From Hanstruepera flava (GTDB taxonomy: Bacteria; Bacteroidota; Bacteroidia; Flavobacteriales; Flavobacteriaceae), in NCBI RefSeq assembly GCF_023634025.1, contig NZ_JALJCW010000001.1, forward strand, positions 657,501 through 721,500: a stretch of 64,000 nucleotides of DNA, given 5' to 3'. The position numbers and the translations under genes were made by a program. Shown piece after piece: positions 7,103-60,400 of this stretch. Position 1 is the stretch's first letter. Each line of letters starts with the position of its first letter. The notes beneath the pieces are model-generated. The model had not been told where the DNA came from, did no database searches, and saw only the letters and a program-made list of their open reading frames with translations.

Positions 7103-7127
7103 AAAACAATTGAATTGCTTATCTGAC

Positions 7128-7772
7128 TTGAAATACGTTAAAAATATAATTGTATGTTTCCTTTTATTTTCTTGCTCTAATTTGGGTGAGAAAAAAAATA
7201 AAATTGAATTATATTCCAATAACTATATTTCATCCAAATCCAAAAATAATATTGGAGTGATTAATTTGGACACCGTCGAAAATTTTTCAGAGTTGAGTAA
7301 GGCAATGGGTAAACTATCCTGTGATAAAAGAATTTCTGGATTGAGATTTGAATTAAATGATTCAATATATAATCTAATTGGTTATTCTGATTGTCCTAAT
7401 CATGGAGAAATTGGATGTTTTTTCACGCCAAATATATTGAAAATAAGAAATGATTCCCTAATATTAGGATATGGTAAAGAAAAATCCTCTAAACCAATTA
7501 GTTATCTAAAGCAAGAGTTAAATAACATTATAGATAACCCTAATAATTATCAAGTTAATAAAAACAAATTGAAACCTGCTGTAATATATTTATATGTTGA
7601 CGATAAATATCCTATTTCAACAACAAAAGAAGTTTTAAAAGAAATAACTAAAGAATTTTTGTTTATTAACAATTCTAAACATTCTGAATATTTCAAATAT
7701 ACTGTTTTGTTTACAGGTTATGATATTACAAAAATTCCACCTCCTCCACTTCCTCCATCTGCAAATGAATAG
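7128..7772 (+). CDS. Hypothetical lipoprotein, AT-rich gene
   Basis: The longest frame begins at a TTG at 7110. A second TTG at 7128 gives a much more typical lipoprotein leader (MKYVKNIIVCFLLFSC; acylated Cys at residue 16), so I use 7128 (214 residues). No ATG lies near. I recognise no domain. The protein has several Cys residues, including GCFF and a DCPNHGEIGC block around residue 93-105, and a proline-rich tail (PPPPLPPSANE). The gene is visibly more AT-rich than its neighbours and uses a weak start codon, hinting at recent acquisition or low expression. A flavobacterial orphan is the safest reading. Confidence 0.5.
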   Translation: MKYVKNIIVCFLLFSCSNLGEKKNKIELYSNNYISSKSKNNIGVINLDTVENFSELSKAMGKLSCDKRISGLRFELNDSIYNLIGYSDCPNHGEIGCFFTPNILKIRNDSLILGYGKEKSSKPISYLKQELNNIIDNPNNYQVNKNKLKPAVIYLYVDDKYPISTTKEVLKEITKEFLFINNSKHSEYFKYTVLFTGYDITKIPPPPLPPSANE

Positions 7773-7831: not shown

Positions 7832-8314
7832 ATGCAATCAAAACAACTAGCCAACCGTTTTAGGGAAGTCCTACTTAATGGTACTTGGATAGCCAATACC
7901 AATTACAAAAAGGCACTTTCTGGCACAACTGTAAAACAAGCCACTACAAAAGTTGGTTCTCTAAATACGCTTTTAGCATTAGCCTTTCATATTAATTATT
8001 ATATTGAAGGCATACTTCCCGTATTTACTGGAGGCTCTCTAACCATTAAAGATAAATACAGTTTTGACCATCCAGAAATAACCATACAAAAAGAATGGGA
8101 TAATTTACTAAACAACATGTGGAAAAATGCAGAACGCTTTGCCAATCATGTTGAACAATTATCAGATTCTGAATTAGAATCACCATTTGTTGATGAAAAA
8201 TATGGAACCTACCGAAGAAATATTGACGGCGTTATTGAACATAGCTATTACCATTTAGGACAAGTGTCCATAATTAAGAAAATGATTTTGGAATTAGAAC
8301 TGGAATCTAACTAG
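7832..8314 (+). CDS. DinB-like (four-helix metal-binding) protein, intact copy
   Basis: Start chosen at ATG 7832 (MQSKQLANRF), not the TTG 15 bases upstream; 160 residues. It looks like a DinB/DUF1572-type four-helix bundle, with His in AFHINYYIEG and a C-terminal EHSYYHLGQVSIIKK helix supplying further metal-ligand candidates. The family includes thiol transferases and stress-induced proteins of unknown substrate. Its stop codon TAG sits in the palindrome CTAG (8311-8314), which also ends the convergent small gene. The 3' part of this gene from about 8124 is the left boundary of the tandem duplication; a diverged second 3' end is at 10220-10401. Confidence 0.7.
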   Translation: MQSKQLANRFREVLLNGTWIANTNYKKALSGTTVKQATTKVGSLNTLLALAFHINYYIEGILPVFTGGSLTIKDKYSFDHPEITIQKEWDNLLNNMWKNAERFANHVEQLSDSELESPFVDEKYGTYRRNIDGVIEHSYYHLGQVSIIKKMILELELESN

Positions 8315-8538
8315 TTATTAGTAACATCAAAAGCATCATCAGGTTTAGAACTGTCATTCTTATCAAAAGAAATTGTTTTAATGGGTTCTTTTGTTGACAT
8401 TTCTATTGGCGGTTTTTTAAACGTACTGGGATGCTCAAAAGCACTTATTTTAGATTCTTGGGTGTTGCGATTTTTTGTGATGCTTCTTACTATCACAATA
8501 AGTACAACAATTGCCAATAAAATGAAAATAAATTTCAT
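8311..8538 (-). CDS. Small single-span membrane protein, copy 1
   Basis: A 75-residue protein starting at the ATG at 8538; an upstream TTG at 8547 would add three residues. Residues 2-18 form one hydrophobic helix (MKFIFILLAIVVLIVIVRS), followed by a polar Lys/Pro/Ser tail that I do not recognise. It begins 13 bases after the stop of the T9SS gene on the same strand, so the two are probably co-transcribed. The same pair recurs in copy 2 (10646-10873) with a few substitutions confined to the tail. The stop shares the CTAG palindrome with the convergent DinB-like gene. Function unknown. Confidence 0.6.
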   Translation of the reverse strand: MKFIFILLAIVVLIVIVRSITKNRNTQESKISAFEHPSTFKKPPIEMSTKEPIKTISFDKNDSSKPDDAFDVTNN

Positions 8539-9367
8539 GTTGACCAAAATTCTATTCTACAATAAACTTCTTTGCCTTTAACAGGTTGTCCTTTTTAATC
8601 ACTAATATGTATTGACCAGCAGCAAGACTTTGCACATTAATTTTAGTCCTATTATTTGACAACTTATTTTGAGATTGTAAAATCTGCCTACCTTGCATAT
8701 CATAAACTTTTAATTCAATCGCTGAATCAGAAAAAGTAATCTCTGCAGGAAATTGCACATTCAATACATGGGTTGCAGGATTTGGATATACTGTAAACAA
8801 CTTTGTGTTTATACTAATGTCTTCGACACTTAACTGTTGAGCATCTAGATAGTCAGGAATACCATTTCCATTAACATCGTCATCAGTAGGATCACCATTA
8901 TCATTGTAATCTTCATCTAAAGTAATAACACCATCACCATCATCATCCATGTCCAAATGGTTTGGAATACCATCATTATCTGTATCTAAAAATGTAGGTG
9001 GATTAACCGTATTATTGGAAGTTCTACCACCAAAAACAATTTCATATTCTGAAATGACTGTATCTCCATCATCGTCATCATCTTGATAGTTTGGAATGCC
9101 ATCACCATCCGTATCATCATCGCCCAAATCACCATTTCCGTTAGCATCTTCCATGTCATTTGGAATACCATCATTCTCATCGTCATTGTCACAGTTGGTA
9201 AAGCTCACCGTTAAATCAAATTGCACATTATCAGTACTTGGGTTCATAACTATCGTAAAATTATTATTCCCAGAACTTATGGTAACATCACCTGAAACCG
9301 ATGCATTGGATGCATCTAAAATATCAACGGTATTTTCTGAAGCATCTAAATTAAACAACCCAAGAAC
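8429..9367. repeat. Apparently identical tract, copy 1 (partner 10764-11702)
   Basis: Comparing by eye at a constant offset of 2335 bases, I find no difference between 8429-9367 and 10764-11702. Differences begin immediately outside (8428 G/A on one side, 9368 C/T on the other) and quickly become frequent. The tract covers the N-terminal half of the small membrane gene and the C-terminal ~270 codons of the T9SS gene. A sharply bounded identity block inside diverged copies suggests gene conversion. Confidence 0.8.
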
Positions 9368-10108
9368 CCTTGTTTTATAATCATCAATATTGAACAACTC
9401 ACTATTGTCATTATCTACATCACAAATGACTACATTGAAATTACTAGTTGGCTTAAAACGCCAGCCTTCATTATTAGCTTCCCATTGACCCACATTTCTA
9501 TTTGGCGGTGTAAGACCTTGTGTTCCTGAATGGTTTTGAATGCCTAAAATTGCATTACCGTTATTCCATGAGGGACAAAGTGGCTTACTTTTGATCATCA
9601 CATCAATTATACCTGTGGTCTCATGCAAAACTACTTGTGATGTCGAAATCAAAGGACTACACGCATATTGAATTATATCTTCATAAAAGATATAAAACCG
9701 TCTATTAGGACTTTCTCCAGAAACGCCATAATAAATAGCACCTTCTGATGTTGAGTCAGCATTGTTTAAATCATGATAAGGCCCGAATATAGCTGGGCTA
9801 GGTAAGCTTTCTGATGGTATCGCGGTATTGATATTCCAAGGATCAAAAGAATTCGCTAATGAAGTATCAAACACAATATCCGCATTGGTTCCAACTACCA
9901 ATTCCAATTGATTTGGTAATCCATAAAAATCAAATGGGAATGGTAAACTAATAACACCAGAATAAATATCATCTTGATTAAACTGTATTATGTTCTGTTC
10001 TTGAAACTCTTGATATGGGATAGACTCAACCGTATATTGATAAGTGTTTTGGGAATAAAAATTGATTGAAAGTAATAATAGAATAATTGAGATATAGCGA
10101 TTTTTCAT
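8552..10108 (-). CDS. T9SS-secreted surface protein with calcium-binding Asp repeats, copy 1
   Basis: A 518-residue protein. Signal peptide residues 1-20 (MKNRYISIILLLLSINFYSQ). Residues ~25-220 form a beta-rich globular domain (FDFYGLPNQ, AIFGPYHD, RRFYIFYEDI, VVLHETTGIIDVMI, NAILGIQN) that resembles a nidogen-like domain; this is tentative. Residues ~306-420 hold thrombospondin-type-3-like Asp repeats (DTDGDGIPNYQDDDDDGD, DTDNDGIPNHLDMDDDGDG), expected to bind calcium. Residues ~435-518 are a type A T9SS sorting domain (YPNPATHVLNV ... VYDMQGRQIL ... LAAGQYILVI ... KKFIVE). The N-terminal half differs strongly from copy 2, whereas the last ~270 residues are identical. The ligand of the N-terminal domain is unknown. 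Confidence 0.8.
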   Translation of the reverse strand: MKNRYISIILLLLSINFYSQNTYQYTVESIPYQEFQEQNIIQFNQDDIYSGVISLPFPFDFYGLPNQLELVVGTNADIVFDTSLANSFDPWNINTAIPSESLPSPAIFGPYHDLNNADSTSEGAIYYGVSGESPNRRFYIFYEDIIQYACSPLISTSQVVLHETTGIIDVMIKSKPLCPSWNNGNAILGIQNHSGTQGLTPPNRNVGQWEANNEGWRFKPTSNFNVVICDVDNDNSELFNIDDYKTRVLGLFNLDASENTVDILDASNASVSGDVTISSGNNNFTIVMNPSTDNVQFDLTVSFTNCDNDDENDGIPNDMEDANGNGDLGDDDTDGDGIPNYQDDDDDGDTVISEYEIVFGGRTSNNTVNPPTFLDTDNDGIPNHLDMDDDGDGVITLDEDYNDNGDPTDDDVNGNGIPDYLDAQQLSVEDISINTKLFTVYPNPATHVLNVQFPAEITFSDSAIELKVYDMQGRQILQSQNKLSNNRTKINVQSLAAGQYILVIKKDNLLKAKKFIVE

Positions 10109-10134
10109 AAGTGTAATAGGTTAGCTCAGTATCT

Positions 10135-10142
10135 CAAAGATA
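10135..10142 (-). promoter_or_regulatory. Candidate -7 element of T9SS copy 1
   Basis: TATCTTTG on the minus strand, 27 bases upstream of the ATG of the copy 1 T9SS gene. No TTG lies at the expected 19-base distance. At the equivalent place in copy 2 (12479-12486) the octamer reads CATCTTTA, losing both conserved ends. This is a weak call on its own. Confidence 0.35.
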
Positions 10143-10171
10143 CAATAATGGCCAAAAGGCTGCGTGAAAAA

Positions 10172-10226
10172 TTAAACTTTTTCTTCTTGATGTTGTAATT
10201 CAGCCTCAAACAAATGGGCAAAATGC
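10172..10226 (-). pseudogene. 3' stump of lipB left at the duplication junction
   Basis: The minus strand encodes the last 17 lipB residues (FAHLFEAELQ then HQEEKV and stop). It is identical to the end of intact lipB at 12516-12570 except one codon (CAT for CGT, His for Arg). No start or upstream coding part is present, so this is a remnant, not a gene. It ends exactly where the DinB-like fragment begins. Confidence 0.85.
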
Positions 10227-10401
10227 AGAACGCTTTGCCAATTATGTTGAACAATTATCAGACACAGAACTAGACTTACCATTTGTTGATAAAAAATATG
10301 GAACCTACCGAAGAAATATTGAAGGCGTTATTGAACACAGCTACTATCATTTAGGACAAGTATCCATAATCAAGAAAATGATTTTGGAGTTAGAAAACTA
10401 A
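10220..10401 (+). pseudogene. Truncated DinB-like gene, copy 2 (3' part only)
   Basis: In frame with the DinB-like family, this encodes the C-terminal ~58 residues (AERFANYVEQLSDTELD ... HSYYHLGQVSIIKK ... LELEN). It lacks the N-terminal two thirds and has no plausible start. It differs from the intact copy at several codons (HVEQLSDSELES versus YVEQLSDTELDL; DEKYG versus DKKYG). The duplication is therefore not very recent, or the fragment is drifting freely. Confidence 0.85.
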
Positions 10402-10403
10402 TA

Positions 10404-10640
10404 ATGGGCTTCTTTGAGCATACAATAGGTTATTTAATATTAAATTTCATTGGCGGAACTTTACGATGGATTTATGGTTCCATTTGGAGAACAATTTTAA
10501 AAAAACCGAAATTTACTTATAGTGAATACCTATATGGCCCAAAAAAATCTTCAAATTATTATGACAAAATAGGTCATAATCAGAATAACGTATTTATAGC
10601 TTTAGCCTTTATATTTATTTTAGTTTTTGCACTTTCATGA
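10404..10640 (+). CDS. Small hypothetical membrane protein found only in copy 2
   Basis: A 78-residue ORF starting two bases after the DinB-like fragment's stop. It has an amphipathic, aromatic-rich N-terminal part (GYLILNFIGGTLRWIYGSIW), a basic middle with Tyr-rich SEYLYGPKKSSNYYD, and a C-terminal hydrophobic segment (VFIALAFIFILVFALS) that could span the membrane. The corresponding position in copy 1 has no such sequence. I recognise no family. The two hydrophobic ends and regular composition make it a plausible real gene, convergent with the small membrane gene five bases away. Confidence 0.5.
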   Translation: MGFFEHTIGYLILNFIGGTLRWIYGSIWRTILKKPKFTYSEYLYGPKKSSNYYDKIGHNQNNVFIALAFIFILVFALS

Positions 10641-10645
10641 TGCAG

Positions 10646-10873
10646 CTAATGTTTAGTAACATCAAAAACATCATCAGGTTTAGAACTGTCATTCTTCTCA
10701 AAAGAAATTGTTTTAATGGGTTCTTTTGTTGACATTTCTATTGGCGGTCTTTTAAACGTACTAGGATGCTCAAAAGCACTTATTTTAGATTCTTGGGTGT
10801 TGCGATTTTTTGTGATGCTTCTTACTATCACAATAAGTACAACAATTGCCAATAAAATGAAAATAAATTTCAT
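10646..10873 (-). CDS. Small single-span membrane protein, copy 2
   Basis: Paralogue of the gene at 8311-8538: same 75-residue length, identical N-terminal helix and juxtamembrane part. Substitutions occur only in the C-terminal half (KR for KK, SFEK for SFDK, VFDVTKH for AFDVTNN). ATG at 10873; a TTG nine bases upstream is an alternative. It follows the copy 2 T9SS gene by 13 bases, so the pairing is conserved in both copies. This argues that the two proteins work together. Function unknown. Confidence 0.6.
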   Translation of the reverse strand: MKFIFILLAIVVLIVIVRSITKNRNTQESKISAFEHPSTFKRPPIEMSTKEPIKTISFEKNDSSKPDDVFDVTKH

Positions 10874-11702
10874 GTTGACCAAAATTCTATTCTACAATAA
10901 ACTTCTTTGCCTTTAACAGGTTGTCCTTTTTAATCACTAATATGTATTGACCAGCAGCAAGACTTTGCACATTAATTTTAGTCCTATTATTTGACAACTT
11001 ATTTTGAGATTGTAAAATCTGCCTACCTTGCATATCATAAACTTTTAATTCAATCGCTGAATCAGAAAAAGTAATCTCTGCAGGAAATTGCACATTCAAT
11101 ACATGGGTTGCAGGATTTGGATATACTGTAAACAACTTTGTGTTTATACTAATGTCTTCGACACTTAACTGTTGAGCATCTAGATAGTCAGGAATACCAT
11201 TTCCATTAACATCGTCATCAGTAGGATCACCATTATCATTGTAATCTTCATCTAAAGTAATAACACCATCACCATCATCATCCATGTCCAAATGGTTTGG
11301 AATACCATCATTATCTGTATCTAAAAATGTAGGTGGATTAACCGTATTATTGGAAGTTCTACCACCAAAAACAATTTCATATTCTGAAATGACTGTATCT
11401 CCATCATCGTCATCATCTTGATAGTTTGGAATGCCATCACCATCCGTATCATCATCGCCCAAATCACCATTTCCGTTAGCATCTTCCATGTCATTTGGAA
11501 TACCATCATTCTCATCGTCATTGTCACAGTTGGTAAAGCTCACCGTTAAATCAAATTGCACATTATCAGTACTTGGGTTCATAACTATCGTAAAATTATT
11601 ATTCCCAGAACTTATGGTAACATCACCTGAAACCGATGCATTGGATGCATCTAAAATATCAACGGTATTTTCTGAAGCATCTAAATTAAACAACCCAAGA
11701 AC
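10764..11702. repeat. Apparently identical tract, copy 2 (partner 8429-9367)
   Basis: Second member of the ~939-base block in which I see no difference from copy 1. The block stops abruptly at 11703, inside the T9SS gene about codon 250. Upstream of that the two genes share only scattered blocks. Confidence 0.8.
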
Positions 11703-12452
11703 TCTTGTTTTATAATCATCGATATTGAACAATTCACTATTGTCATTATTTACATCACAGATAACCACATTAAAGTTGTTGGTTGGTATAAAACGCCAAC
11801 CTTCTTCATTAGCATCCCAGGCAATATTATTTCTTCCAGGAGCTGCAATTCCTCTAGTTCCGTTATTATCTTGTATTCCAACAATTGCTCGTCCTTCCCA
11901 CCAAGTATCACAAACTGGTTTTTCTTTGATATATACATCAATTATGTTTGTAGTTTCATGCAAGACTAATTGAAAGGTCGAATATAAATCGTTACATGAA
12001 TAATGTGGAAAATCTTCAAAAAAAACATAAAAGCGCCTATGAGGTGACTCACCTGAAACACCATAATAAGCACCTCCAGGTGGATCTCCTAACCCTCCTT
12101 GTCCTATATCATGAAACGCAGCAAAAATTGTAGCTTTTCTATTTTGAAATGTAGTTGGTATAGAATTGTCAAGCCCTATATTCCAGAAATCAAACGTATT
12201 TGCTAATGATAAATCAAACACTATGTCAGCATTTGCACCAATAACAATCTGAGTTTGATTTAAAAGTTGATAAAAATCAAACTCAAAGGGCATATTAATA
12301 ATACCCGAATAAACATCATCTTGGAGTTGAACCACATTTTGCTCCTGATATTCTTGAAATGGAATAGGTTGAACAGTATATTCATAAGAATTTTGAGAGT
12401 AAAAATTTAGTGATAATGATATTAAAAATAAGGTAATGTATAGATTTTTCAT
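10887..12452 (-). CDS. T9SS-secreted surface protein with calcium-binding Asp repeats, copy 2
   Basis: A 521-residue paralogue of the 8552-10108 gene. Signal peptide to about FYSQ (residue 20). Residues ~25-225 are the same beta-rich domain type (FEFDFYQLLNQ, ATIFAAFHDIG, HRRFYVFFEDFPHYSC, LVLHETTNIIDVYI, RAIVGIQDNNG) but substantially diverged. From about residue 250 to the end it is identical to copy 1: Asp-rich type-3 repeats and the type A T9SS sorting domain. Secretion through the type IX system to the cell surface or medium follows from the tail. Two proteins sharing stalk and anchor but differing in the exposed domain suggest diversified recognition, which is inference. Confidence 0.8.
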   Translation of the reverse strand: MKNLYITLFLISLSLNFYSQNSYEYTVQPIPFQEYQEQNVVQLQDDVYSGIINMPFEFDFYQLLNQTQIVIGANADIVFDLSLANTFDFWNIGLDNSIPTTFQNRKATIFAAFHDIGQGGLGDPPGGAYYGVSGESPHRRFYVFFEDFPHYSCNDLYSTFQLVLHETTNIIDVYIKEKPVCDTWWEGRAIVGIQDNNGTRGIAAPGRNNIAWDANEEGWRFIPTNNFNVVICDVNNDNSELFNIDDYKTRVLGLFNLDASENTVDILDASNASVSGDVTISSGNNNFTIVMNPSTDNVQFDLTVSFTNCDNDDENDGIPNDMEDANGNGDLGDDDTDGDGIPNYQDDDDDGDTVISEYEIVFGGRTSNNTVNPPTFLDTDNDGIPNHLDMDDDGDGVITLDEDYNDNGDPTDDDVNGNGIPDYLDAQQLSVEDISINTKLFTVYPNPATHVLNVQFPAEITFSDSAIELKVYDMQGRQILQSQNKLSNNRTKINVQSLAAGQYILVIKKDNLLKAKKFIVE

Positions 12453-12515
12453 AAGTGCAATTCATCAGCTTTATATCTTAAAGATGCAATAATGGCCAAA
12501 AGGCTGCGTGAAAAA

Positions 12516-13232
12516 TTAAACTTTTTCTTCTTGACGTTGTAATTCAGCCTCAAACAAATGGGCAAAATGCTTTAAGAGCTTTTCTTTTACTTCAGCTTCG
12601 TCAACTGTTTGTTTACCTAGTTCTACGTTTAATGAGGTAACCGCTTTACCTCGAATACCACAAGGAATCATATTATCAAAATAGCCTAAATCAGCATTGA
12701 CGTTCAAAGCAAAGCCATGCATAGTGACCCAACGACTGGCACGAACACCCATGGCGCAAATCTTTCTGGCAAAAGGCGTTCCTACATCCAACCAAACACC
12801 TGTTTCGCCTTGGCTACGCTCTGCTTTAAGACCATATTCGGCTAATGTGAGGATAATCATTTCCTCCAAAAAGCGTAAATACTTATGAATATCTGTAAAA
12901 AAGTTATCCAAGTCCAAAATAGGATAGCCTACAATTTGTCCAGGACCATGATACGTAATGTCGCCTCCTCGATTCACTTTGTAAAACGTAGCGCCTTTTT
13001 CAGCCAGTTGCTTTTCATCTACCAACAGGTTAGACATATCACCACTTTTTCCTAACGTATAAACATGTGGATGCTCAACAAACAAAAAATAGTTAGGTGT
13101 TTGTAAATTGGCTTCTTCACGTCGGTTTTTAATCTTGGTATCAACAATGTTTTTAAATAAGGTCTCTTGATAATCCCAAGTTTCTTTGTAATCTTTTAAG
13201 CCTAATTCCTGAATGGAAACTGTTTTATTCAT
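12516..13232 (-). CDS. lipB: Octanoyltransferase (lipoate biosynthesis)
   Basis: LipB moves octanoyl groups from acyl carrier protein to lipoyl domains of 2-oxoacid dehydrogenases and the glycine cleavage system. At 238 residues it has the full set of motifs: RGGDITYHGPGQIVGYPILDL (88-108), catalytic Lys157 in ARKICAMG and catalytic Cys191 in NMIPCGIRGK. The C-terminal 17 codons were copied into the tandem duplication (10172-10226). A TAATTTTG -7-like box (13239-13246) sits only six bases before the start codon, so the mRNA may be nearly leaderless. Confidence 0.95.
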   Translation of the reverse strand: MNKTVSIQELGLKDYKETWDYQETLFKNIVDTKIKNRREEANLQTPNYFLFVEHPHVYTLGKSGDMSNLLVDEKQLAEKGATFYKVNRGGDITYHGPGQIVGYPILDLDNFFTDIHKYLRFLEEMIILTLAEYGLKAERSQGETGVWLDVGTPFARKICAMGVRASRWVTMHGFALNVNADLGYFDNMIPCGIRGKAVTSLNVELGKQTVDEAEVKEKLLKHFAHLFEAELQRQEEKV

Positions 13233-23940: not shown

Positions 23941-24315
23941 TTATTTAGTTGCCATTTTCTTGTTAGCAACAGTTTTTCTTCTACCTTTTCTTGTTCTAGA
24001 GTTGTTTTTAGTACGTTGTCCTCTTAATGGAAGACCAGCTCTATGACGTATACCTCTGTAACATCCAATATCCATTAATCGCTTAATGTTTAATTGTGTT
24101 TCAGAACGTAATTCACCTTCAATAGTGTAAGATCCTACAGCTTCACGAATGTTTCCAATTTCGTCATCTGTCCAATCTTGAACTTTAGTACTTTCATCAA
24201 CTTTAGCAGTAGCTAAAATTTCTTTTGCTCTACTTTTACCTATTCCATAGATATAGGTAAGTGAGATTACTCCTCTTTTGTTTTTTGGTATGTCTACACC
24301 TGCAATTCTTGCCAT
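23941..24315 (-). CDS. rpsM: 30S ribosomal protein S13
   Basis: 124 residues. S13 contacts the 50S subunit and P-site tRNA at the head of the 30[26 protein letters not shown] opens the protein. The C-terminal [28 protein letters not shown] is the conserved RNA-binding tail. It starts five bases after rpmJ. Confidence 0.98.
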
Positions 24316-24320
24316 AATAA

Positions 24321-24437
24321 TTAACCTTGTCTTTGTTTGAATCTAGGATTCTTTTTGTTAATGACGTAAAGTCTACCTTTTCTGCGGACGATCTTACAGT
24401 CTGCACTTCTCTTTTTTACTGATGCTCTTACTTTCAT
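24321..24437 (-). CDS. rpmJ: 50S ribosomal protein L36 (cysteine-poor form)
   Basis: A 38-residue gene between infA (4-base gap) and rpsM (5-base gap). It begins [20 protein letters not shown] and ends NPRFKQRQG. Of the four zinc ligands of classical L36 (Cys11, Cys14, Cys27, His33) only Cys14 remains; the others are Ser, Asn and Phe. It cannot bind zinc in the usual way. Confidence 0.96.
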
Positions 24438-24441
24438 CGTA

Positions 24442-24657
24442 TTAGTATCTATAAGTTATTCGAGCCTTTGTTAAATCGTACGGGCTCATTTCTAATTTTA
24501 CTTTATCTCCTGGTAACAACTTAATGTAGTGCATACGCATTTTACCAGATATGTGTGCTGTCACAATGTGACCATTTTCTAATTCAACACGAAACATAGC
24601 ATTTGATAATGCTTCTATAATTGTTCCGTCTTGCTCTATTGCTGCCTGTTTTGCCAT
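24442..24657 (-). CDS. infA: Translation initiation factor IF-1
   Basis: 71 residues, a single OB fold: [65 protein letters not shown] in outline. IF-1 occupies the A site during initiation. It lies between secY (10-base gap) and rpmJ. There is no map gene here, unlike in many Firmicutes. Confidence 0.97.
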
Positions 24658-48363: not shown

Positions 48364-49641
48364 ATGAATGAACCTTTAGCGGAACGATTAAGGCCACAGG
48401 CTCTTGAAGACTATATTAGTCAAACTCATTTAGTAGGGTCTAATGGTAGCTTGACTAGACATATAAAACAAGGCATCATTCCATCCATGATACTTTGGGG
48501 GCCTCCAGGTATTGGGAAAACAACACTTGCCAATATAATAGCAAATGAGGCAGAACGCCCATTTTATACTTTGAGTGCGATAAATTCTGGGGTTAAGGAT
48601 GTTCGAGAAGTTATAGAAAAGGCAAAAAAATCGGGAGGACTTTTTACTACTAAAAATCCCATACTGTTTATTGACGAAATACATAGGTTTAGTAAATCGC
48701 AACAAGATTCCTTATTGCAGGCAGTTGAAAAAGGTTGGGTAACACTTATTGGAGCTACAACAGAAAATCCCAGTTTTGAAGTTATTCCTGCGCTTTTATC
48801 ACGTTGTCAGGTTTATATTCTAAACGCCTTTAATAAAAGTGATTTAGAAGCACTTTTAAGACGTGCTATTGAAAAAGATAGTATCATATCTCAAAAAAAC
48901 GTAAAACTGCAAGAAACAGATGCTTTGTTTCGTCTTTCTGGTGGAGATGCCAGAAAATTGCTCAATATATTTGAATTATTGGTTAATAGTCAATCTGAAT
49001 CTGAAATAATAATTACCAATGATATGGTTATGCAAAATGTCCAGAACAATACTGTTCGTTATGACAAAACTGGGGAACAACATTACGATATTATTTCTGC
49101 ATTTATAAAGTCTATTAGAGGTAGTGACCCTAATGCAGCTGTTTATTGGTTGGCTAGAATGGTAGAAGGCGGTGAAGATGTTAAGTTTATTGCTAGACGA
49201 TTGTTAATTTTAGCCAGTGAGGATATTGGCAATGCAAACCCAACGGCATTAGTAATTGCTAACAATACCTTCCAAGCCGTTTCTACAATTGGTAATCCTG
49301 AATCACGTATAATTTTGAGTCAATGTGCCACATATTTAGCCTGCTCTCCAAAAAGTAATGCATCCTATCAAGCTATAAATAAAGCCCAACTGTTAGTAAA
49401 AGAAACTGGCGATTTAAGTGTACCTCTAGAAATACGAAATGCACCAACTAAACTTATGAAAGAATTAGGTTATGGTGATAATTATAAATATGCCCACAAC
49501 TACGAAGACAACTTTGCCAAGCAGGAATTTTTACCCGAAGAGATTAAAAACACACAACTTTACAACCCAGGAAATAATTCTAGAGAGCAAAACCAAAGGG
49601 AGTTTTTAAAAAAACGCTGGAAAGATAAATACGATTACTAA
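48364..49641 (+). CDS. rarA: Replication-associated recombination protein A (MgsA/RarA AAA+ ATPase)
   Basis: 425 residues. MNEPLAERLRPQALEDYISQTHLVG is typical of the family. Walker A is GPPGIGKTTLANIIA (~46-60), Walker B LFIDEIHRFSKSQQDSLL (~100-117), sensor 1 IGATTENPSFEV, and arginine-finger region ALLSRC. The C-terminal part has GGEDVKFIARRLLILASEDIGNANP. It acts on stalled replication forks. Convergent overlap of four bases with the next gene. Confidence 0.95.
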   Translation: MNEPLAERLRPQALEDYISQTHLVGSNGSLTRHIKQGIIPSMILWGPPGIGKTTLANIIANEAERPFYTLSAINSGVKDVREVIEKAKKSGGLFTTKNPILFIDEIHRFSKSQQDSLLQAVEKGWVTLIGATTENPSFEVIPALLSRCQVYILNAFNKSDLEALLRRAIEKDSIISQKNVKLQETDALFRLSGGDARKLLNIFELLVNSQSESEIIITNDMVMQNVQNNTVRYDKTGEQHYDIISAFIKSIRGSDPNAAVYWLARMVEGGEDVKFIARRLLILASEDIGNANPTALVIANNTFQAVSTIGNPESRIILSQCATYLACSPKSNASYQAINKAQLLVKETGDLSVPLEIRNAPTKLMKELGYGDNYKYAHNYEDNFAKQEFLPEEIKNTQLYNPGNNSREQNQREFLKKRWKDKYDY

Positions 49642-50414
49642 AATTTAATATTAAGCGTTTTAACTTGTAGGTCATCACCAATAGTCTCGGCGATAACCCA
49701 ATTGTCATTTAGTTTATAGACCGTAGCATTCCTATCCTTTACCATAAAAAAATCTTTTTTGCCTGAAAAAATTAAGATGTAAACAACTTTTGGTGTACTG
49801 TCAACCAACTGATACCCATTATTTATTGGTTGTGCATATAAAACTTCTGAACTATCAGTTTCTACTTTCTTTATAGGTGCGGTTACTTCGGTTTTTTGTA
49901 CGGTAGTTTCTGCAGTAACCTCTATAGGTTTTACAGGCTTTACTTCAGAAACATCATGGTTTTCTTCACTATTGGGCTCTAAAGGTTCGTACTTGTAATT
50001 CAATTCTTTGACATACAAAAATGCTTCTCTCAAAGCTTTGTTATACGCAACTTTATACTTCTTTTCCCTACTCTCTCCATTAAGTCCTTCAAAAACAATT
50101 TGATCTTTACAATTCTTCAATACCACATGTAATTTAGTTAAGAACATACCTTTGTCTTTTACCACATCTGCACGAAGAGCTAAACAGCCGTTTTTTTGTA
50201 AATCTTCAGGAAATTCGTCTCCCTGCATTATGGCCGTAAATCCATATTTATTGAATAAAAATTGTGAAAGAGAATTTAATTGATATTCATCTGGATTGTG
50301 CTGAAAATCGTAAGTGTCTGGTACGATTACATACTTGTAATTATTTACATTCTGTTGTGCAAAAACATTTCCCAAAGTAGTTACAACAATCAACAGTACT
50401 ATTCTTTTTAACAT
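49638..50414 (-). CDS. Hypothetical exported protein
   Basis: Start at the ATG at 50414 (MLKRIVLLIVVTTLGNVFAQ), which begins a clean signal peptide; the longer frame adds nine residues. 258 residues. Mature regions: ~20-140 alpha/beta (YKYVIVPDTYDFQHNPDEYQLNSLSQFLFNKYGF; CLALRADVVKDKGMFLTKLHVVLKNCKDQIVFEG), a Val/Thr/Lys/Pro-rich linker ~150-190, and a C-terminal beta region (IFSGKKDFFMVKDRNATVYKLNDNWVIAETIG). It looks conserved in flavobacteria, but I do not recognise its function. 33 bases downstream of the YjjG-type gene on the same strand, likely co-transcribed. Confidence 0.65.
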   Translation of the reverse strand: MLKRIVLLIVVTTLGNVFAQQNVNNYKYVIVPDTYDFQHNPDEYQLNSLSQFLFNKYGFTAIMQGDEFPEDLQKNGCLALRADVVKDKGMFLTKLHVVLKNCKDQIVFEGLNGESREKKYKVAYNKALREAFLYVKELNYKYEPLEPNSEENHDVSEVKPVKPIEVTAETTVQKTEVTAPIKKVETDSSEVLYAQPINNGYQLVDSTPKVVYILIFSGKKDFFMVKDRNATVYKLNDNWVIAETIGDDLQVKTLNIKF

Positions 50415-50447
50415 GTGTATTAAATTTTTATAAAGATACATCTTGAT

Positions 50448-51137
50448 TTACAAATACAATTTCAAATCTAGTAAATTTGTTATCTGTTTTATATTCTTAT
50501 CAAGCTTTGTGCCATGAACATTAAAACAAATAGCATCCAAACCAATATTTATAGCTCCTTGTATATCAGCTTCCCAGTTATCTCCAACCATAACACTGGA
50601 GTTTACAGTTGTGTTAGCCAAGTTTAAAGCTTGCTCAAAAATAATGGGGTTTGGTTTCTTTACACCAACCATTTCTGAATTTGTTACGGTTTCAAAAAAA
50701 ATATCAATATTCGAATTTTGTAATTTTCCATGCTGTACTTCGTGAAATCCATTAGTGATTATATGAAGCCTATATTTTGGTTTTAAATAGTTTAATATTT
50801 CAATTGTGCCATCAAACAAATAATTGTTTGAAGGTAAATGTGTTATATAATCTTCTGATAAACGATTAATTAATCTATCTTCTACAAAATAGTCAATAGC
50901 ATCAAAGGTATTCTTAAGCCGACCGTATCTTAAAGCTGCTTTGTCTATTTTTTCTTCGCGATAGAGTTTCCAATAATTCAAATTAATAGGTTCATAAACT
51001 GTTAAAAAATCATCTAAAACAACTCCTACATTGTGAATATCAAATATCTTTTCGAATGTTAGCGCAGAATTCTTATCAAAATCCCAGAGTGTGTGGTCTA
51101 AATCAAAAAAAACGTCGGTTATGCCTTTAAGCTTCAT
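50448..51137 (-). CDS. YjjG-type HAD-family pyrimidine nucleotidase
   Basis: 229 residues, HAD superfamily. Motif I VFFDLDHTLWDFDKN (nucleophile Asp), helical cap ~15-90, motif II HIITNGFHEVQ, motif III Lys in GVKKPNPIIFEQAL, motif IV MVGDNWEADIQGA. Family members hydrolyse non-canonical pyrimidine nucleotides and dTMP/UMP. Overlaps the upstream deacetylase-like gene by 11 bases, consistent with translational coupling. Confidence 0.88.
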   Translation of the reverse strand: MKLKGITDVFFDLDHTLWDFDKNSALTFEKIFDIHNVGVVLDDFLTVYEPINLNYWKLYREEKIDKAALRYGRLKNTFDAIDYFVEDRLINRLSEDYITHLPSNNYLFDGTIEILNYLKPKYRLHIITNGFHEVQHGKLQNSNIDIFFETVTNSEMVGVKKPNPIIFEQALNLANTTVNSSVMVGDNWEADIQGAINIGLDAICFNVHGTKLDKNIKQITNLLDLKLYL

Positions 51138-52428
51138 TTGCTGACTCCAATATTAAATTAAACAATTCTTTAAACCCTTTCCACCTATCAATATCACTAA
51201 ATGTATAATTGTGAAAAACTGGAATAAACTCACCATTTACCAATTTGACTTCTCGTATTATTTCGTTTAACACCTTCTTCTTGTCCAATAATGATTGGGT
51301 TTTAAGCAATGTATAATCCATTACATGATATGAATGTATCATTAATGGAGTTTGTATTTCAAAATCGAGATCGTAAAACAAAAAAGGGGTACATGTTCCC
51401 GCTCTAAAACCCATGTGGTTTACATAACCCATAGTATAATCTTCCAATATCTCTAACTCAACTAAATTTCTGTATGAATTAGGTAAATTCAATTTAGAAA
51501 ACGACTGCCTTGACGCAGCTAAGGTCGTATTTAAAATACTTTCTATTCTATTCTTTTCCTCCTTTAACACTAATGGATCTTCTAAAGCAAAAAAAGACAT
51601 TTTTAAACCTACATTACAATAATCGGCTACATGCTTAATCAACGATACAAACTGTTTCTTTTGAGCATTTACACCTTTGTCGTAAGTAGAATAGTCCCCT
51701 ATTAAAAAGAAAAACAAAAACTTGTATTTAGATTGTTTTTGCCTATTTAAAATATACTTAAACGTGTCATCAGGGTCATGCTTTAAGCCTATGATTACCA
51801 AAAATCGGGTGTACATACGTTTAAATTTAAAGCTAGACAAATCTTTTAAACTCCCACCAATGGTTCTTAAAATACCCTTTAATTTGAAACTATAAGGTGA
51901 TGGCACATCTATTATTGGTTTAATCTTATAGTTTCTATCCGGGAATTTAAACTCAGGAAATTGAGCTTGTACAATTGTTTTAAACTTATAAGCCCAGATA
52001 TCAACTACAGGCTGATTTAAAAAATTATTTTTGTAGGCTAAACTTTCTTCAGCCATAAACCTACCATATTCATCTTTAACATGAGGTAGATACTCTTCAT
52101 ACCGACTTAACAAATAAAATGTCGCTGCAAAAATGTCAAAAGGCACACTACTTCTTTCACTCGTTGTAAAAAAACATTTAGTATCGTCCCAATCTTGCAC
52201 GTGTATATCTAAATCTGACAAGCCTTGCTCAAAAAGTAAATCATGACTTCTTATAAAAATCTCATTCCCTAACGGTTGTTTTGCATAGGATATTTTAACT
52301 GAATCGTGAGCAATAAACTCCTCTATAGTAGTAGTAAATGCCACTGGAACATCTAAAATACGGGTGAAAATATGTTTAAAGGCATATTTTAATCGAGGTG
52401 TAATTTTGTGCGTATATACAAGTACCAT
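51127..52428 (-). CDS. Polysaccharide-deacetylase-like protein
   Basis: 433 residues without signal peptide. The protein opens MVLVYTHKITPRLKYAFKHIF; an early region (IRSHDLLFEQGLSDLDIHVQDWDD) resembles the DUF7033-type domain often paired with NodB-like deacetylases. The middle has FLIGDYSTYDK, GVNAQKKQFVSLIKHVADYCNVGLK and a candidate catalytic strand MGFRAGTCTPFLFYDLDFE. The canonical NodB TFDD is not obvious, so catalytic activity is uncertain. It overlaps radC by one base and the nucleotidase by 11. Confidence 0.65.
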   Translation of the reverse strand: MVLVYTHKITPRLKYAFKHIFTRILDVPVAFTTTIEEFIAHDSVKISYAKQPLGNEIFIRSHDLLFEQGLSDLDIHVQDWDDTKCFFTTSERSSVPFDIFAATFYLLSRYEEYLPHVKDEYGRFMAEESLAYKNNFLNQPVVDIWAYKFKTIVQAQFPEFKFPDRNYKIKPIIDVPSPYSFKLKGILRTIGGSLKDLSSFKFKRMYTRFLVIIGLKHDPDDTFKYILNRQKQSKYKFLFFFLIGDYSTYDKGVNAQKKQFVSLIKHVADYCNVGLKMSFFALEDPLVLKEEKNRIESILNTTLAASRQSFSKLNLPNSYRNLVELEILEDYTMGYVNHMGFRAGTCTPFLFYDLDFEIQTPLMIHSYHVMDYTLLKTQSLLDKKKVLNEIIREVKLVNGEFIPVFHNYTFSDIDRWKGFKELFNLILESANEA

Positions 52429-53126
52429 TAAATTAGAGTTTCGTCTGCAAAACTAAAATATGCTTCTTCGGTTACAATAATATGATCTAAAACTTTAATA
52501 TCTAAACTTTCTCCAGCTCGTTTCAATTTTTGAGTAATCTGCTTGTCAGCTTCACTAGGCTTTAAGGTTCCCGATGGATGATTATGAACCAAAATAATGC
52601 CTGTTGCACCCAATTCTAAAGCCATTTTTAAAACCAATCGCACATCAACCAACGTTCCTGTGATACCTCCCTTACTTAATTGCTGTTTTTGAATGACTTT
52701 ATTGGAATTGTTCAAATAAATAATCCAGAATTCTTCATGTGGGAGCTCTCCTATAATGGGTTGCATCAATTCAAATACCGAAATGCTAGAGGTTATTTTC
52801 TTTTTCTCCAAGGCTTCTTCTCCTCTTCGTCTTCTGCCCAACTCCATAGCTGCTGCAATAGTAATCGCCTTTGCCTCGCCTATGCCTTTAAAAGCCATCA
52901 ACTGTTTTAAAGATAACTTGCCCAGCTCATTCAAATTGTTACCAACCGAAACTAAAATACGCTTGCACAAATCAACTGCGCTTTCATTCCGACTGCCCGA
53001 ACCTATTAAAATGGCCACCAACTCGGCATCACTTAATGCCGCTTTTCCCTTGTCGCGGAGTTTCTCTCGTGGTTGGTCATCTTGTGACCAATTTTTTATA
53101 GAAAATGAAGCGTGTTTTTCAGTCAT
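52428..53126 (-). CDS. radC: DNA repair protein RadC (JAMM/MPN-type)
   Basis: 232 residues. The N-terminal helix-hairpin-helix part (KLSLKQLMAFKGIGEAKAITIAAAMELGRRR) is followed by the MPN+ domain with ...LGATGIILVHNHPSGTLKPSEADKQITQKL (HxHPSG...D metal site). Despite the name, the repair role is doubtful; its enzymatic role is unknown. First of a minus-strand group with overlapping genes. Confidence 0.95.
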   Translation of the reverse strand: MTEKHASFSIKNWSQDDQPREKLRDKGKAALSDAELVAILIGSGSRNESAVDLCKRILVSVGNNLNELGKLSLKQLMAFKGIGEAKAITIAAAMELGRRRRGEEALEKKKITSSISVFELMQPIIGELPHEEFWIIYLNNSNKVIQKQQLSKGGITGTLVDVRLVLKMALELGATGIILVHNHPSGTLKPSEADKQITQKLKRAGESLDIKVLDHIIVTEEAYFSFADETLI

Positions 53127-53193
53127 TTAGTAAATATAAATATTGTAACTTTCAGAAGCAATTTTTGGATTACTTAACCTTATAAATAAAAAA

Positions 53194-53643
53194 ATGAAAT
53201 CATTATTTTCTGAAGATACTGTTTCTGAAATAAGAGCCAGAATAGAATTACTACAAGAAAACCAAAATCCAAAATGGGGAAAAATGAATGCCTCACAAAT
53301 GTTAGCTCATTGTAAGTTTCCATTACAAGTTGCCCTAGGCGAACTGGCTTTGGAAAAACCAAATGTATTTAAACGCCTATTATTCTCTATGTTTAAATCC
53401 TCTTTATATGATGATAAAGCGTGGAAACAAAGCTTACCTACAACAAAAGAATTTGTGGTGTCAAGCGACAAAAATTTTCGTAATGAAAAAACAGATTTGT
53501 TAGAAGAAATCGAAAAATTTCATACTAAAAAAGATCAAACTGAATGGCCACCACATCCTATGTTTGGGTATTTTACACAGGATCAATGGGGTAAGATGCA
53601 ATACAAGCATTTAGACCATCATTTAAATCAATTTGGAGTATAA
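53194..53643 (+). CDS. DUF1569-type (DinB-superfamily-like) protein
   Basis: 149 residues, soluble. KWGKMNASQMLAHCKFPLQVALGE and the closing LDHHLNQFGV provide the His residues expected of the DinB-like four-helix metal-binding fold, and the layout matches DUF1569. It ends one base into the PaiB-like gene (ATAATG), suggesting coupling. Function unknown; family relatives are thiol transferases or carriers. Confidence 0.75.
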   Translation: MKSLFSEDTVSEIRARIELLQENQNPKWGKMNASQMLAHCKFPLQVALGELALEKPNVFKRLLFSMFKSSLYDDKAWKQSLPTTKEFVVSSDKNFRNEKTDLLEEIEKFHTKKDQTEWPPHPMFGYFTQDQWGKMQYKHLDHHLNQFGV

Positions 53644-54342: not shown

Positions 54343-54909
54343 ATGAGAAAGATTAAAATAATAAATTACATTTTATTTCTAATTTTTGTTTCATGTAATG
54401 ATTCCGATGACTCAATAGAAGAAAGTATTACTGATTTAAATTGTTCTAATAATTATGCCCTTGGCATTGATATTGACATTGATGAAGATGGCGTTAATGA
54501 TTTTATTATTGTCTGTTCAAAAGATTTAGTTGGGGCAATGTTCCCTTGGGATGGTGGATTATTTATAAATATTTCTACTTATGAAAATGCTCACATTTTA
54601 AGAAAATCTTACGAAGGTTTATTTTTTCTTCAAACTAATGATATAATATATGCTGAACAAAGTTTGGAAAACGGAGCTTGGTTTGAAGAATCTCGCATTA
54701 TGTTATCAAAATTATTTTATAACGATTCTGGTTGGAATGATGAATGGTTTGTGAATTCTAATATAGAAGAATACTATATGGCATTTAAACTTACAAATGA
54801 GAATACAGAAAAAATAGGTTGGATAAAATTTGAATTTGATACCATAAATGGTCAATTCAGTATTATAAATAAAATGATTACTGAATCTGACTCACTAATT
54901 ATTAATTAA
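54343..54909 (+). CDS. Hypothetical lipoprotein
   Basis: 188 residues; lipobox Cys18 (FLIFVSCNDSDDSIEES), followed by an acidic run that suits surface export. One Asp-rich motif (IDIDIDEDGVNDF) resembles calcium-binding dockerin or type-3 repeats. The rest is beta-rich, with aromatic residues (WDGGLFINIS, WNDEWFVNSN). No family recognised. The 106-base gap upstream shows no clear promoter. Confidence 0.5.
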   Translation: MRKIKIINYILFLIFVSCNDSDDSIEESITDLNCSNNYALGIDIDIDEDGVNDFIIVCSKDLVGAMFPWDGGLFINISTYENAHILRKSYEGLFFLQTNDIIYAEQSLENGAWFEESRIMLSKLFYNDSGWNDEWFVNSNIEEYYMAFKLTNENTEKIGWIKFEFDTINGQFSIINKMITESDSLIIN

Positions 54910-57347: not shown

Positions 57348-57490
57348 AACATTAAAAATGTCGGTTTTACAAAGATAACCTTTCTATCTCACTCAAAAAA
57401 TAGCTACCTTCCCTCAACCAAAACCTAAAATACCGTATTCGCGTTTTTTTGGAACAACTTTTGAATGTACCCTTGTACAAAATGATGACT

Positions 57491-60400
57491 ATGAAACAGC
57501 TTACTGCAATTTTAATGATTGTTTGTTCAATGCATTTTTCGCAAGCACAAAACCCTTCTTATGATAAACTCTGGAAACAGGTGGACAAACTGGAGTCTGA
57601 AGGTTTACCTAAATCGGCTTTAGAGCTGGTTGAACAAATTTCTCAACAAGCCAAGACCGAACAGAACGAACCGCAATACATCAAATCATTATTATTTAAA
57701 AGTAAGTATGCCTTAATTCTGGAAGAAGATGCGCAGTTGACTATCATAAACGACTTTAAAGCTCAAATAGCAAATAGTCAGGCTCCTACGCAAAACGTTT
57801 TAGAGAACATGCTAGCCACTATGTATTGGCAGTATTTTCAACAGAATAGATGGAAATTCTATAATCGAACCAATACCTCCGAAAAAGTTGATGAAACCGA
57901 TTTTAGAACTTGGGATTTAGAAACGCTTTTTGCTGAAATACAATTACACTATCAAAATTCGTTGCAAAACGGACTCATTTTGCAACAAACAAAGCTTGAA
58001 GATTATGCCGTCATCATAAACGAGCAAAAGAATTCCAAGCAATTTCGTCCTAGCTTATTTGATTTACTGGCTCACAACGCCCTAGAATTCTTCAAAACCG
58101 ATGAAAACAGCATCACCAAACCTGCTTATAAATTTGAAATTGACAATCTGGATTATTTGAGTGATGCTAACGCCTTTTCTCGCTTGAAGTTATCTTCAAA
58201 AGATTCTACCTCATTGCAGTTGCAGGCCTTAAAAATCTATCAGGACCTCATCCAATTTCATTTAAAGAATTCTTCCCCTGAAGCCTTGGTGGATGTAGAT
58301 ATCAATCGACTTCAGTTTGTATCGCAACATGCCACATTCAGCAATAAGGAAGACGTGTTATTACAAACGCTTAAAGCATCACGTAATTTTTACGGTTCAC
58401 AACCTGTATCAGGTTTGTACAGTTTTGAAATAGCGCAACTATGGTTTCAACAAGGCAGTCAATATCAACCTAAAACCGACGAAACCCATCAATGGAAAAT
58501 TAAGGAAGCCTATGACATTTGCCAATCGGTCATTTTTGCGTTTCCAAAAAGTGTTGCTGCTGAAAAATGCGAGGCACTCAAACAACAGATTCTGCAACCT
58601 AGCTTGCAACTACAGATAGAAAGCTACATACCTATCCAACAGGAATCGCGTTTGTTGGTTCGCTATAAAAATATTAATGCATTAGACTTCAGTGCCTATA
58701 TGCTAACCGAAAAGCAGTTTGAAATCTTTAATAAAACATACCGAACAGAAGATCAAATTGAGTTTTTTAGAACTTTGAATCTTACCCAATCTTGGGAATC
58801 CAATTTACGCGATGTTAAAGACTATCAGCAACACAGTACTGAAGTCCTTATTCCGCTATTGGCGAACGGTCGTTACTTGATGGTTGCCAAAGTTCCTAAT
58901 AGCGACATTTTTGCGACGCAAACCATTCAGGTGACCAATATTGCTTTGGTTGATAAAAGCGAGAACCACAAACAAAGCTATCAGTTTATTGACCGAAATA
59001 ATGGCAAGCCGATTGAGGGTGTTGACGTTAAAATCACCTATCAAAAAAACTACAATAGTGGCACCAAACAAAAAAAACTGACCTCCAATACTAGAGGAAC
59101 TATAGAAATAGAAAAGTCTGGCGAGCGATGGACACAAGTAAAAATTGAAGCCCAGACACCTGATGACAAGGCCTATTTTGGTGATTACTACATAAACCGT
59201 TCACAAACACCAAAACCCGATCCAATAAGTTACAAAGGGTTTCTGTTTACAGACCGAAGTATTTACAGACCAGGTCAAACAGTCCATTTTAAGGGTATTG
59301 CCATAAGAACCGAAGATGGTAAATCGGAAGTATTGCCTAATGAAGATACCTATGTGATTTTATATGATGTGAACGGACAGGAAGTGCATCGTTTGGATTT
59401 ACGAACCAATGCTTTTGGTTCGGTTTCGGGTGAGTTCATATTGCCGAGTAGTGGCTTAACGGGCCAATTTAGAATACAGCTATTGGGAAAAACCCATACA
59501 CTTTCTAATACCAATGTCTATATCTCTGTAGAAGAATACAAACGTCCCAAGTTTGAAACCACGTTCAAACCCATAACCGAGACCTTTAAAATTAATGATT
59601 CCATTACCCTAAACGGAAATGCGCTTGCCTATGCTGGCAGTAACATAACTGATGCCAAGGTAGTGTATCGCGTCCACCGAAAAGTGCGTTATCCTAGTTG
59701 GTATTATTGGTATCGACCAGCTTTTAACAGTGAGCCACAAGAAATCACTCATGGTGAAACCACCACCAATGAAAAAGGCGAATTTGAAATCACATTTAAA
59801 GCCATTCCTGATTTGAGTGTTGACAAAGACTCACAACCCATTTTTAATTATGAAGTCACGGCTGATGTAACAGATATCAATGGCGAAACCCGAAGTGCCA
59901 CCACTCTAGTCAATGTTGGCTATCATGCTATGACGGCATCTATTTCGGTTAACAATCTTTTGAATAAAACCAACAAGGAGCACAAACTGGAAATCACGAC
60001 CCAAAACCTCAACGGTGAGTTTGTACCTGCCAAAGGAACCATTAAAATGTATAAGTTGAAAGCACCTGACTATGTGCTGCGAGCAAGACCTTGGCAAGCA
60101 CCAGACTACCCGATGCTTCCGGAAGCAGAGTTTAAATCTAAATTTCCACACGATGCGTATCAAGATGAACACAACCCAAATAATTGGGAAAAAGGCGAAC
60201 TGGTTTTTGAAAAGCGTTTTGATACGGAAACATCCAAAACTATAGCTTTAGGCAACATCAAAAAATGGCAATCTGGTCAATATGTGATTGTTTTGGAAAG
60301 TCAGGATGCCTTTGGTCAAGATGTGAAAGCTGAAACCAAAACCACACTCTATAGTGACCAAGATAAAACCCTTGCCGATAAGCAACTATTTAGTATTACC

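Follow-up and report, generated by a model that had tools for sequence, protein, structure and literature searches.

An apparently recombinational mosaic in tandem type IX secretion cargo genes of Hanstruepera flava

Surface proteins of Bacteroidota can vary by exchange of domains and alleles. In Porphyromonas gingivalis, variants of Kgp, PrtT and other surface proteins, which include cargo with the sorting tail of the type IX secretion system (T9SS), are described as mosaics unrelated to the single-nucleotide polymorphism phylogeny, and homologous recombination has been proposed as their source (PMC5266723). From what that report describes, this is the nearest known case to a locus that we studied in a 64,000-nucleotide stretch of the Hanstruepera flava genome (assembly GCF_023634025.1, contig NZ_JALJCW010000001.1, positions 657,501 to 721,500; the window). 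The locus holds two adjacent genes for T9SS type A cargo proteins, copies A and B, with identical C-terminal halves and strongly diverged N-terminal halves. The variation described in P. gingivalis is allelic and lies between strains of one species (PMC5266723), whereas here two alleles stand in tandem and the conflict is between species.

The pattern also resembles recombination already known from other bacteria. Tandem merodiploids arise during transformation of Streptococcus pneumoniae, in which unequal exchange with donor DNA produces a tandem duplication and two alleles can coexist (PMC3784515); the duplications reported there span ~100–900 kb and use existing repeats, whereas the unit studied here measures 2.3 kb and has a microhomology of 10 bases. 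Concerted evolution, as described for prokaryote paralogues, likewise leaves paralogues closer to each other than to their orthologues (PMC6053082), but in the present case half of the gene is homogenised while the other half is more diverged than orthologues, and a single lineage is concerned. Finally, transformation in Bacillus subtilis gives discontinuous donor segments lying close together (PMC13344027), a likeness limited by that study's use of laboratory transformants and by duplication not being among the features it describes.

The locus (7853–13232) consists, in order, of a dinB-like gene, small membrane-protein gene A, cargo gene A, a lipB stump, a dinB stump, a 78-codon open reading frame (ORF), small membrane-protein gene B, cargo gene B and an intact lipB. 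Both cargo copies, A (8552–10108, minus strand, 518 amino acids) and B (10887–12452, minus strand, 521 amino acids), are full-length ORFs with a C-terminal Por_Secre_tail sorting domain (8.8e-16 and 8.9e-16; 58.4 bits against a curated cut-off of 27), and the products of both are probably secreted to the surface, each with a different version of the N-terminal domain. Base-by-base alignment of the two units gave a longest identical run of 939 bases, 8429–9367 in A and 10764–11702 in B, confirming what an earlier, sequence-only reading of the window had seen by eye. The differing flanks noted in that reading were also recovered, and divergence was far from uniform. The copies differ at 16 of 178 positions in the 3' part of dinB (9.0%), at 7 of 118 in the distal part of the small membrane gene (5.9%) and at none of the 939 in the tract. 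The diverged N-terminal block with its leader (9368–10142 in A, 11703–12486 in B) then shows in succession 9 differences in 73 positions at the tract edge (9368–9440; 12.3%), 230 in 665 in the N-block proper (34.6%, plus 15 gap columns) and 10 in 34 in the 5' leader (29.4%), followed by a single change in the 84 bases of the lipB stump with its adjoining leader (1.2%).

We evaluated the tract by randomization and by the rates of the neighboring blocks. Among 10,000 shuffles of the 273 differences over 2091 columns, no identical run exceeded 115 bases. The probability of zero differences in 939 positions was 2.5e-27 at the rate of the flanks outside the N-terminal block (24/380, 6.3%) and 1.3e-5 at the rate of the lipB stump, a poor estimate given its one change in 84 bases; the 95% upper bound for the divergence of the tract is 0.32%. 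Compared with Hanstruepera marina, the same 939 positions differ at 49 sites, and A and B agree at every one of them. The tract has thus been free to change and appears to have been made identical recently, and the explanation that it is merely constrained is excluded by these differences. Paralogues identical where orthologues differ are the mark of concerted evolution, seen here in one lineage: repeated homogenisation in several lineages was not observed, as two copies occur, among the carriers found, in the window genome only. The alignments make recent homogenisation of the C-terminal half well supported, and the pattern of the locus is, by the same comparisons, real, well bounded and recombinational. 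The sequence-only reading had included the membrane partner in the homogenised region, which holds for part of that gene, 110 of the 228 bases of 8311–8538. It had also taken stalk and tail to be preserved by design, and here the relatives speak against it. Between the clade of H. flava and H. marina and that of Hanstruepera neustonica and a Hanstruepera metagenome-assembled genome (MAG), windows of the Asp-rich stalk are 84–97% identical and the sorting tail is 53–71% identical at the DNA level, so constancy of the tail is no general rule in the genus; the tails of A and B are alike because of the recent tract.

To place the two halves of the gene, we compared copies A and B with their counterparts in H. 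marina, H. neustonica, the Hanstruepera MAG, Xanthomarina sp. F1114 and one further genome (G032). H. marina NBU2968 is the nearest to H. flava NBU2984 in the published comparison, with an average nucleotide identity (ANI) of 88.9%, and two other Hanstruepera compared there reach 77.4–78.3% (PMC9355603). The C half matches these species relations, both copies being nearest to H. marina (nucleotide identity ~94.4–94.5%; synonymous divergence, dS, 0.24). The N half of A is nearest to H. neustonica (83.8%, dS 0.74), and its identity to H. marina (73.8%, dS 1.24) is lower than that of any of 50 other window genes (minimum 82.2%). The N half of B is 66–68% identical in nucleotides to A and to the three other Hanstruepera rows, and its protein is at most 61% identical to copy A and the five relatives compared. 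N-half trees joined A with H. neustonica with support of 100/100, and approximately unbiased (AU) tests on this half rejected A with H. marina (p 8.6e-5), A with B (p 0.0087) and the MAG with H. neustonica (p 1.4e-4), the last a pair that the C-half trees recovered with support of 83/87. The N half thus rejects pairs favored by species distances, the conflict between gene parts by which inter-species domain exchange is recognized, and exchange of the N-terminal half between species is supported by these trees and by the half-gene control described below. As an A+B clade is rejected for the N half, at least one of the N halves probably came from elsewhere, contrary to the proposal in the sequence-only reading that the exposed domains had diverged in place after duplication. 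In a search for the source of the N-block of B, 397 genomes sampled from the family gave 5 with a match at E 1e-50, among which, the window's own genome aside, H. marina came closest at 58% amino acid identity; the block is 60.2% identical to H. neustonica in the comparison alignment. Positive selection on the N half was considered and is unsupported: dN (NG86) is below dS in every pair with a defined dS, several of the dS values being near saturation.

As a control, we cut other genes at the middle and compared the gap in identity between halves with that of the cargo genes, which were cut at the tract edge, a post hoc choice that falls near the middle (codon 247 of 518). Between the window and H. 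marina the gap was 20.7 points for copy A and 27.7 for copy B; among 24 other genes the median gap was 2.2 and the largest 14.7. Between the MAG and H. neustonica it was 13.0 (maximum 8.0 in 23 genes), and copy B stood out against H. neustonica (10.7) and the MAG (11.6) as well.

The remnants between the two cargo genes carry histories of their own. The lipB 3' stump with its adjoining leader (10143–10226, minus strand) lies beside copy A and corresponds to 12487–12570 at the end of the intact resident lipB (12516–13232, minus strand; NCBIfam lipB above cut-off). It shares states with the resident gene that are missing from H. marina, H. neustonica and the MAG, such as the stop codon (TAA vs TGA), and these mark it as recently copied from the end of the resident lipB. 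On the copy B side, the 3' stump of dinB (10225–10401, plus strand) is at least as near to the dinB of H. marina as to the resident dinB-like gene on the A side (7853–8314, plus strand, start perhaps further upstream; Pfam DinB_2 25.3 bits, just above the cut-off of 24.8), whose orthologue occupies the corresponding place in H. marina. Over 176 aligned bases, A and B differ by 8.5%, A and H. marina by 8.5%, and B and H. marina by 5.7%, with 10 informative sites grouping B with H. marina, 5 grouping A with H. marina and 5 grouping A with B. The alignment has 19 variable codons, of which 9 are changed in A alone (5 nonsynonymous); B and H. marina have 5 private codons each (1 nonsynonymous in either case). 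Read in this way, the dinB stump did not arise by recent copying of the resident dinB, and its few and mostly silent changes look like those of a gene under selection until recently. The ages of the two stumps are thus at odds, and a third lineage probably supplied one arm of the duplication. The stumps meet at 10217–10226 in a 10-base microhomology, GGCAAAATGC, present both at the end of lipB and in the dinB of H. marina; the resident dinB has an internal mismatch. The microhomology at the junction may be a sign of homology-facilitated illegitimate recombination, in which such a join on one side accompanies homologous exchange on the other; no donor was found in the genomes searched.

With moderate confidence, we explain the locus as a heteroallelic tandem duplication, or merodiploid, that arose through recombination with DNA of a related lineage, with homologous recombination homogenising the C-terminal halves afterwards or at the same time. 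It seems that two diverged alleles became linked, the microhomology being the probable point of joining: an incoming fragment ending in an H. marina-like dinB and the 78-codon ORF (orfX) would have been attached illegitimately to the resident lipB end, and the N block of one copy would derive from a remote allele. RecA-type exchange could then have left the 939 identical bases, either by gene conversion between the copies or by retention of resident sequence between two donor patches.

Several observations weigh against this explanation. No donor of the B-side dinB, orfX or N block was found in the genomes searched, which include one H. flava strain. The informative sites in dinB are too few to prove that B is nearer to H. 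marina, though they are sufficient against a young copy of A; moreover, which of the two dinB arms is foreign cannot be told, and the resident arm could be a later replacement. The C-half trees are weakly resolved, and a clade of A, B and H. marina was neither recovered nor rejected (AU p 0.42). Other half-gene gaps were ordinary or nearly so: that between H. marina and the MAG hardly exceptional (7.1, maximum 6.4 in 22 genes), that between H. marina and H. neustonica inside the range (7.6, maximum 8.0 in 23), and those of copy A to H. neustonica (5.1, maximum 9.3 in 24) and to the MAG (3.4, maximum 6.7 in 23) unexceptional. The tandem order itself is the simplest reading of a short-read assembly, short of proof. 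The DprA and ComEC-type families are present in the window genome, but they also match in 11 and 10, respectively, of 14 control genomes; they permit transformation and, being so common, do not demonstrate competence. Under equal conditions, Riemerella columbina is reported to be competent and Flavobacterium johnsoniae is not (PMC7965970).

The contrast between an identical tract and an N-block differing by 34.6% is also what one would expect if the unit had been self-duplicated long ago, its N halves diversifying in place while repeated gene conversion kept the stalk, tail and membrane gene alike, and a fast-diverging N half would agree with copy A being less like H. marina there than any of the 50 other window genes. 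The AU test rejects A and B as N-half sisters, however, and the N-half dS of ~1.6 is far above the divergence of the dinB stump (8.5% of sites) and the lipB stump (1.2%) in the same unit, a spread that no single age would explain. The window genome is, moreover, the only carrier found with two copies, and we regard this history as quite improbable. A recent, simple self-duplication of the age of the lipB stump would accommodate that stump, and the tract may be equally old and owe its identity to youth without conversion; separate imports, which look frequent in the window, would then have replaced one N block and one dinB arm. Such imports would need to end at both edges of the tract, given that its flanks differ by 5.9% at the membrane-gene end and by 12.3% at the other, and the probability of 1.3e-5 for an unchanged tract at the stump's rate also opposes this course of events, though with the rate being poorly estimated from one site. 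We hold it to be unlikely.

The assembly could produce a similar picture if slight differences in the tract had been merged or the second copy misplaced. A repeat of 939 bases is longer than the reads from which such short-read assemblies are built. For H. flava NBU2984, SOAPdenovo v1.05 was used to assemble Illumina HiSeq 4000 reads (PMC9355603), and assemblers of this type are described as merging the bubbles that inexact repeats create (PMC3861042). Yet the differences of ~6% and 12% just outside the tract stayed separate, and the distinct middle piece between the two repeats would still imply two copies. The exact identity of 100% rests on this short-read assembly and sparse differences in the tract could have been merged; as the denser ones beside it were kept apart, only sparse ones could be hidden, and homogenisation stands. 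An artefact as the source of the whole pattern appears very improbable to us.

If the locus is a merodiploid as we propose, recombination between its 939-base direct repeats would delete 2335 bases and leave one clean gene with the N domain of B. The product would consist of the resident dinB, membrane gene A, the shared C half, the N-block of B and the intact lipB, without a scar. Repeat-mediated deletion is in this sense a possible route for N-domain swapping. The relatives carry single-copy loci with discordant N halves, and we offer, tentatively and with considerable doubt, the wider idea that the pair has been caught midway through a general N-domain swap in Hanstruepera. In such a swap a foreign allele would arrive in tandem and have its C half homogenised, after which recombination between the repeats would delete the old N domain together with the scars, restoring a clean single-copy gene. 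Were this true, a new surface domain would first lie next to the existing one and afterwards take its place without a scar, a route open to testing in this marine sediment species, which is in culture. The locus also cautions against reading tandem paralogues with an unchanged middle and unlike ends as necessarily diverged in place: here the relatives point to partial import of the unlike ends.

The sequence-only reading had seen in the layout a dedicated system of surface-protein variation. This is unsupported: no silent copies were seen, dN is below dS where defined, and one carrier genome has two copies. At E 1e-100 or better, 5 genomes matched over nearly the full length, and at E 1e-60 a match was found in 12 (three candidates scored per genome); in each set the window genome alone has two copies. 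Beyond the two copies, a search for silent donor cassettes found the tract matching the genome in three stretches of at most 78 bases (77–82% identity), in an assembly of 3,094,910 bases in 23 contigs, the window's contig being 1,585,466 bases, in which gaps remain. The next match to the N half in the genome is 41% identical in amino acids and lies in a long ORF. The window contains no inverted repeats of at least 60 bases, the search having covered neither shorter repeats nor recombinases.

Exact tracts shared with H. marina occur elsewhere in the window, so that mosaic recombination seems ordinary here. Despite the ANI of 88.9%, H. flava and H. marina share two identical runs at 57980–60252, of 936 and 1336 bases, separated by a single mismatch. 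At 49060–53464, four runs of 516–614 bases are identical to H. marina, and the dS to that species is 0.00–0.08 in five genes at 49638–53643 and 0.15 to 0.93 in nearby genes; this region is a probable recent inter-species import. A further run of 435 identical bases (24082–24516) lies in a very conserved stretch.

Among the remaining features of the locus, the small membrane-protein gene of copy A (8311–8538, minus strand, 75 amino acids) has homologues in H. marina, the MAG and a further genome of the genus (G002), and its counterpart in copy B lies at 10646–10873 on the same strand. In G002, the small membrane gene follows 32 bases after lipB (L070:7175–8120), and the T9SS cargo gene is absent there. 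The ORF orfX (10404–10640, plus strand) has hydrophobic ends and is absent from copy A; it has no Pfam match, and among 60 genomes its one match was the window's own, the 59 others giving none. A structure prediction for copy A from six sequences was poor (mean predicted local distance difference test score 42.9) and was not used, and a profile search of solved structures gave a single weak match, to a sorting domain (8glj_D, E 0.0095). Scans for regulatory signals performed at chance, with 28 sigma-70 promoters found and 28.0 expected, and 3 terminators found and 2.9 expected. The word TANNTTTG is a promoter word of Bacteroidota, and it too occurred at the chance level (9 found, 7.4 expected). 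Upstream of the cargo genes, copy A has TATCTTTG and copy B CATCTTTA, and we draw no conclusion from either. A literature search turned up no paper title on this locus.

Some minor observations concern the surroundings. Between dinB and the homologue of 7110–7772, H. marina has an ORF of 501 codons with a lipoprotein-like start (L031:10549–12054) that has no counterpart in the window, and the homologue of 7110–7772 itself is in H. marina an ORF of just 85 codons. A 188-codon ORF at 54343–54909 had no tblastn match (E 1e-10) in the corresponding stretches of three relatives and no Pfam match. The two long runs at 57980–60252 sit in an alpha-2-macroglobulin gene (57449–63922), the first half of which is 99.4% and the second half 84.7% identical to H. 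marina.

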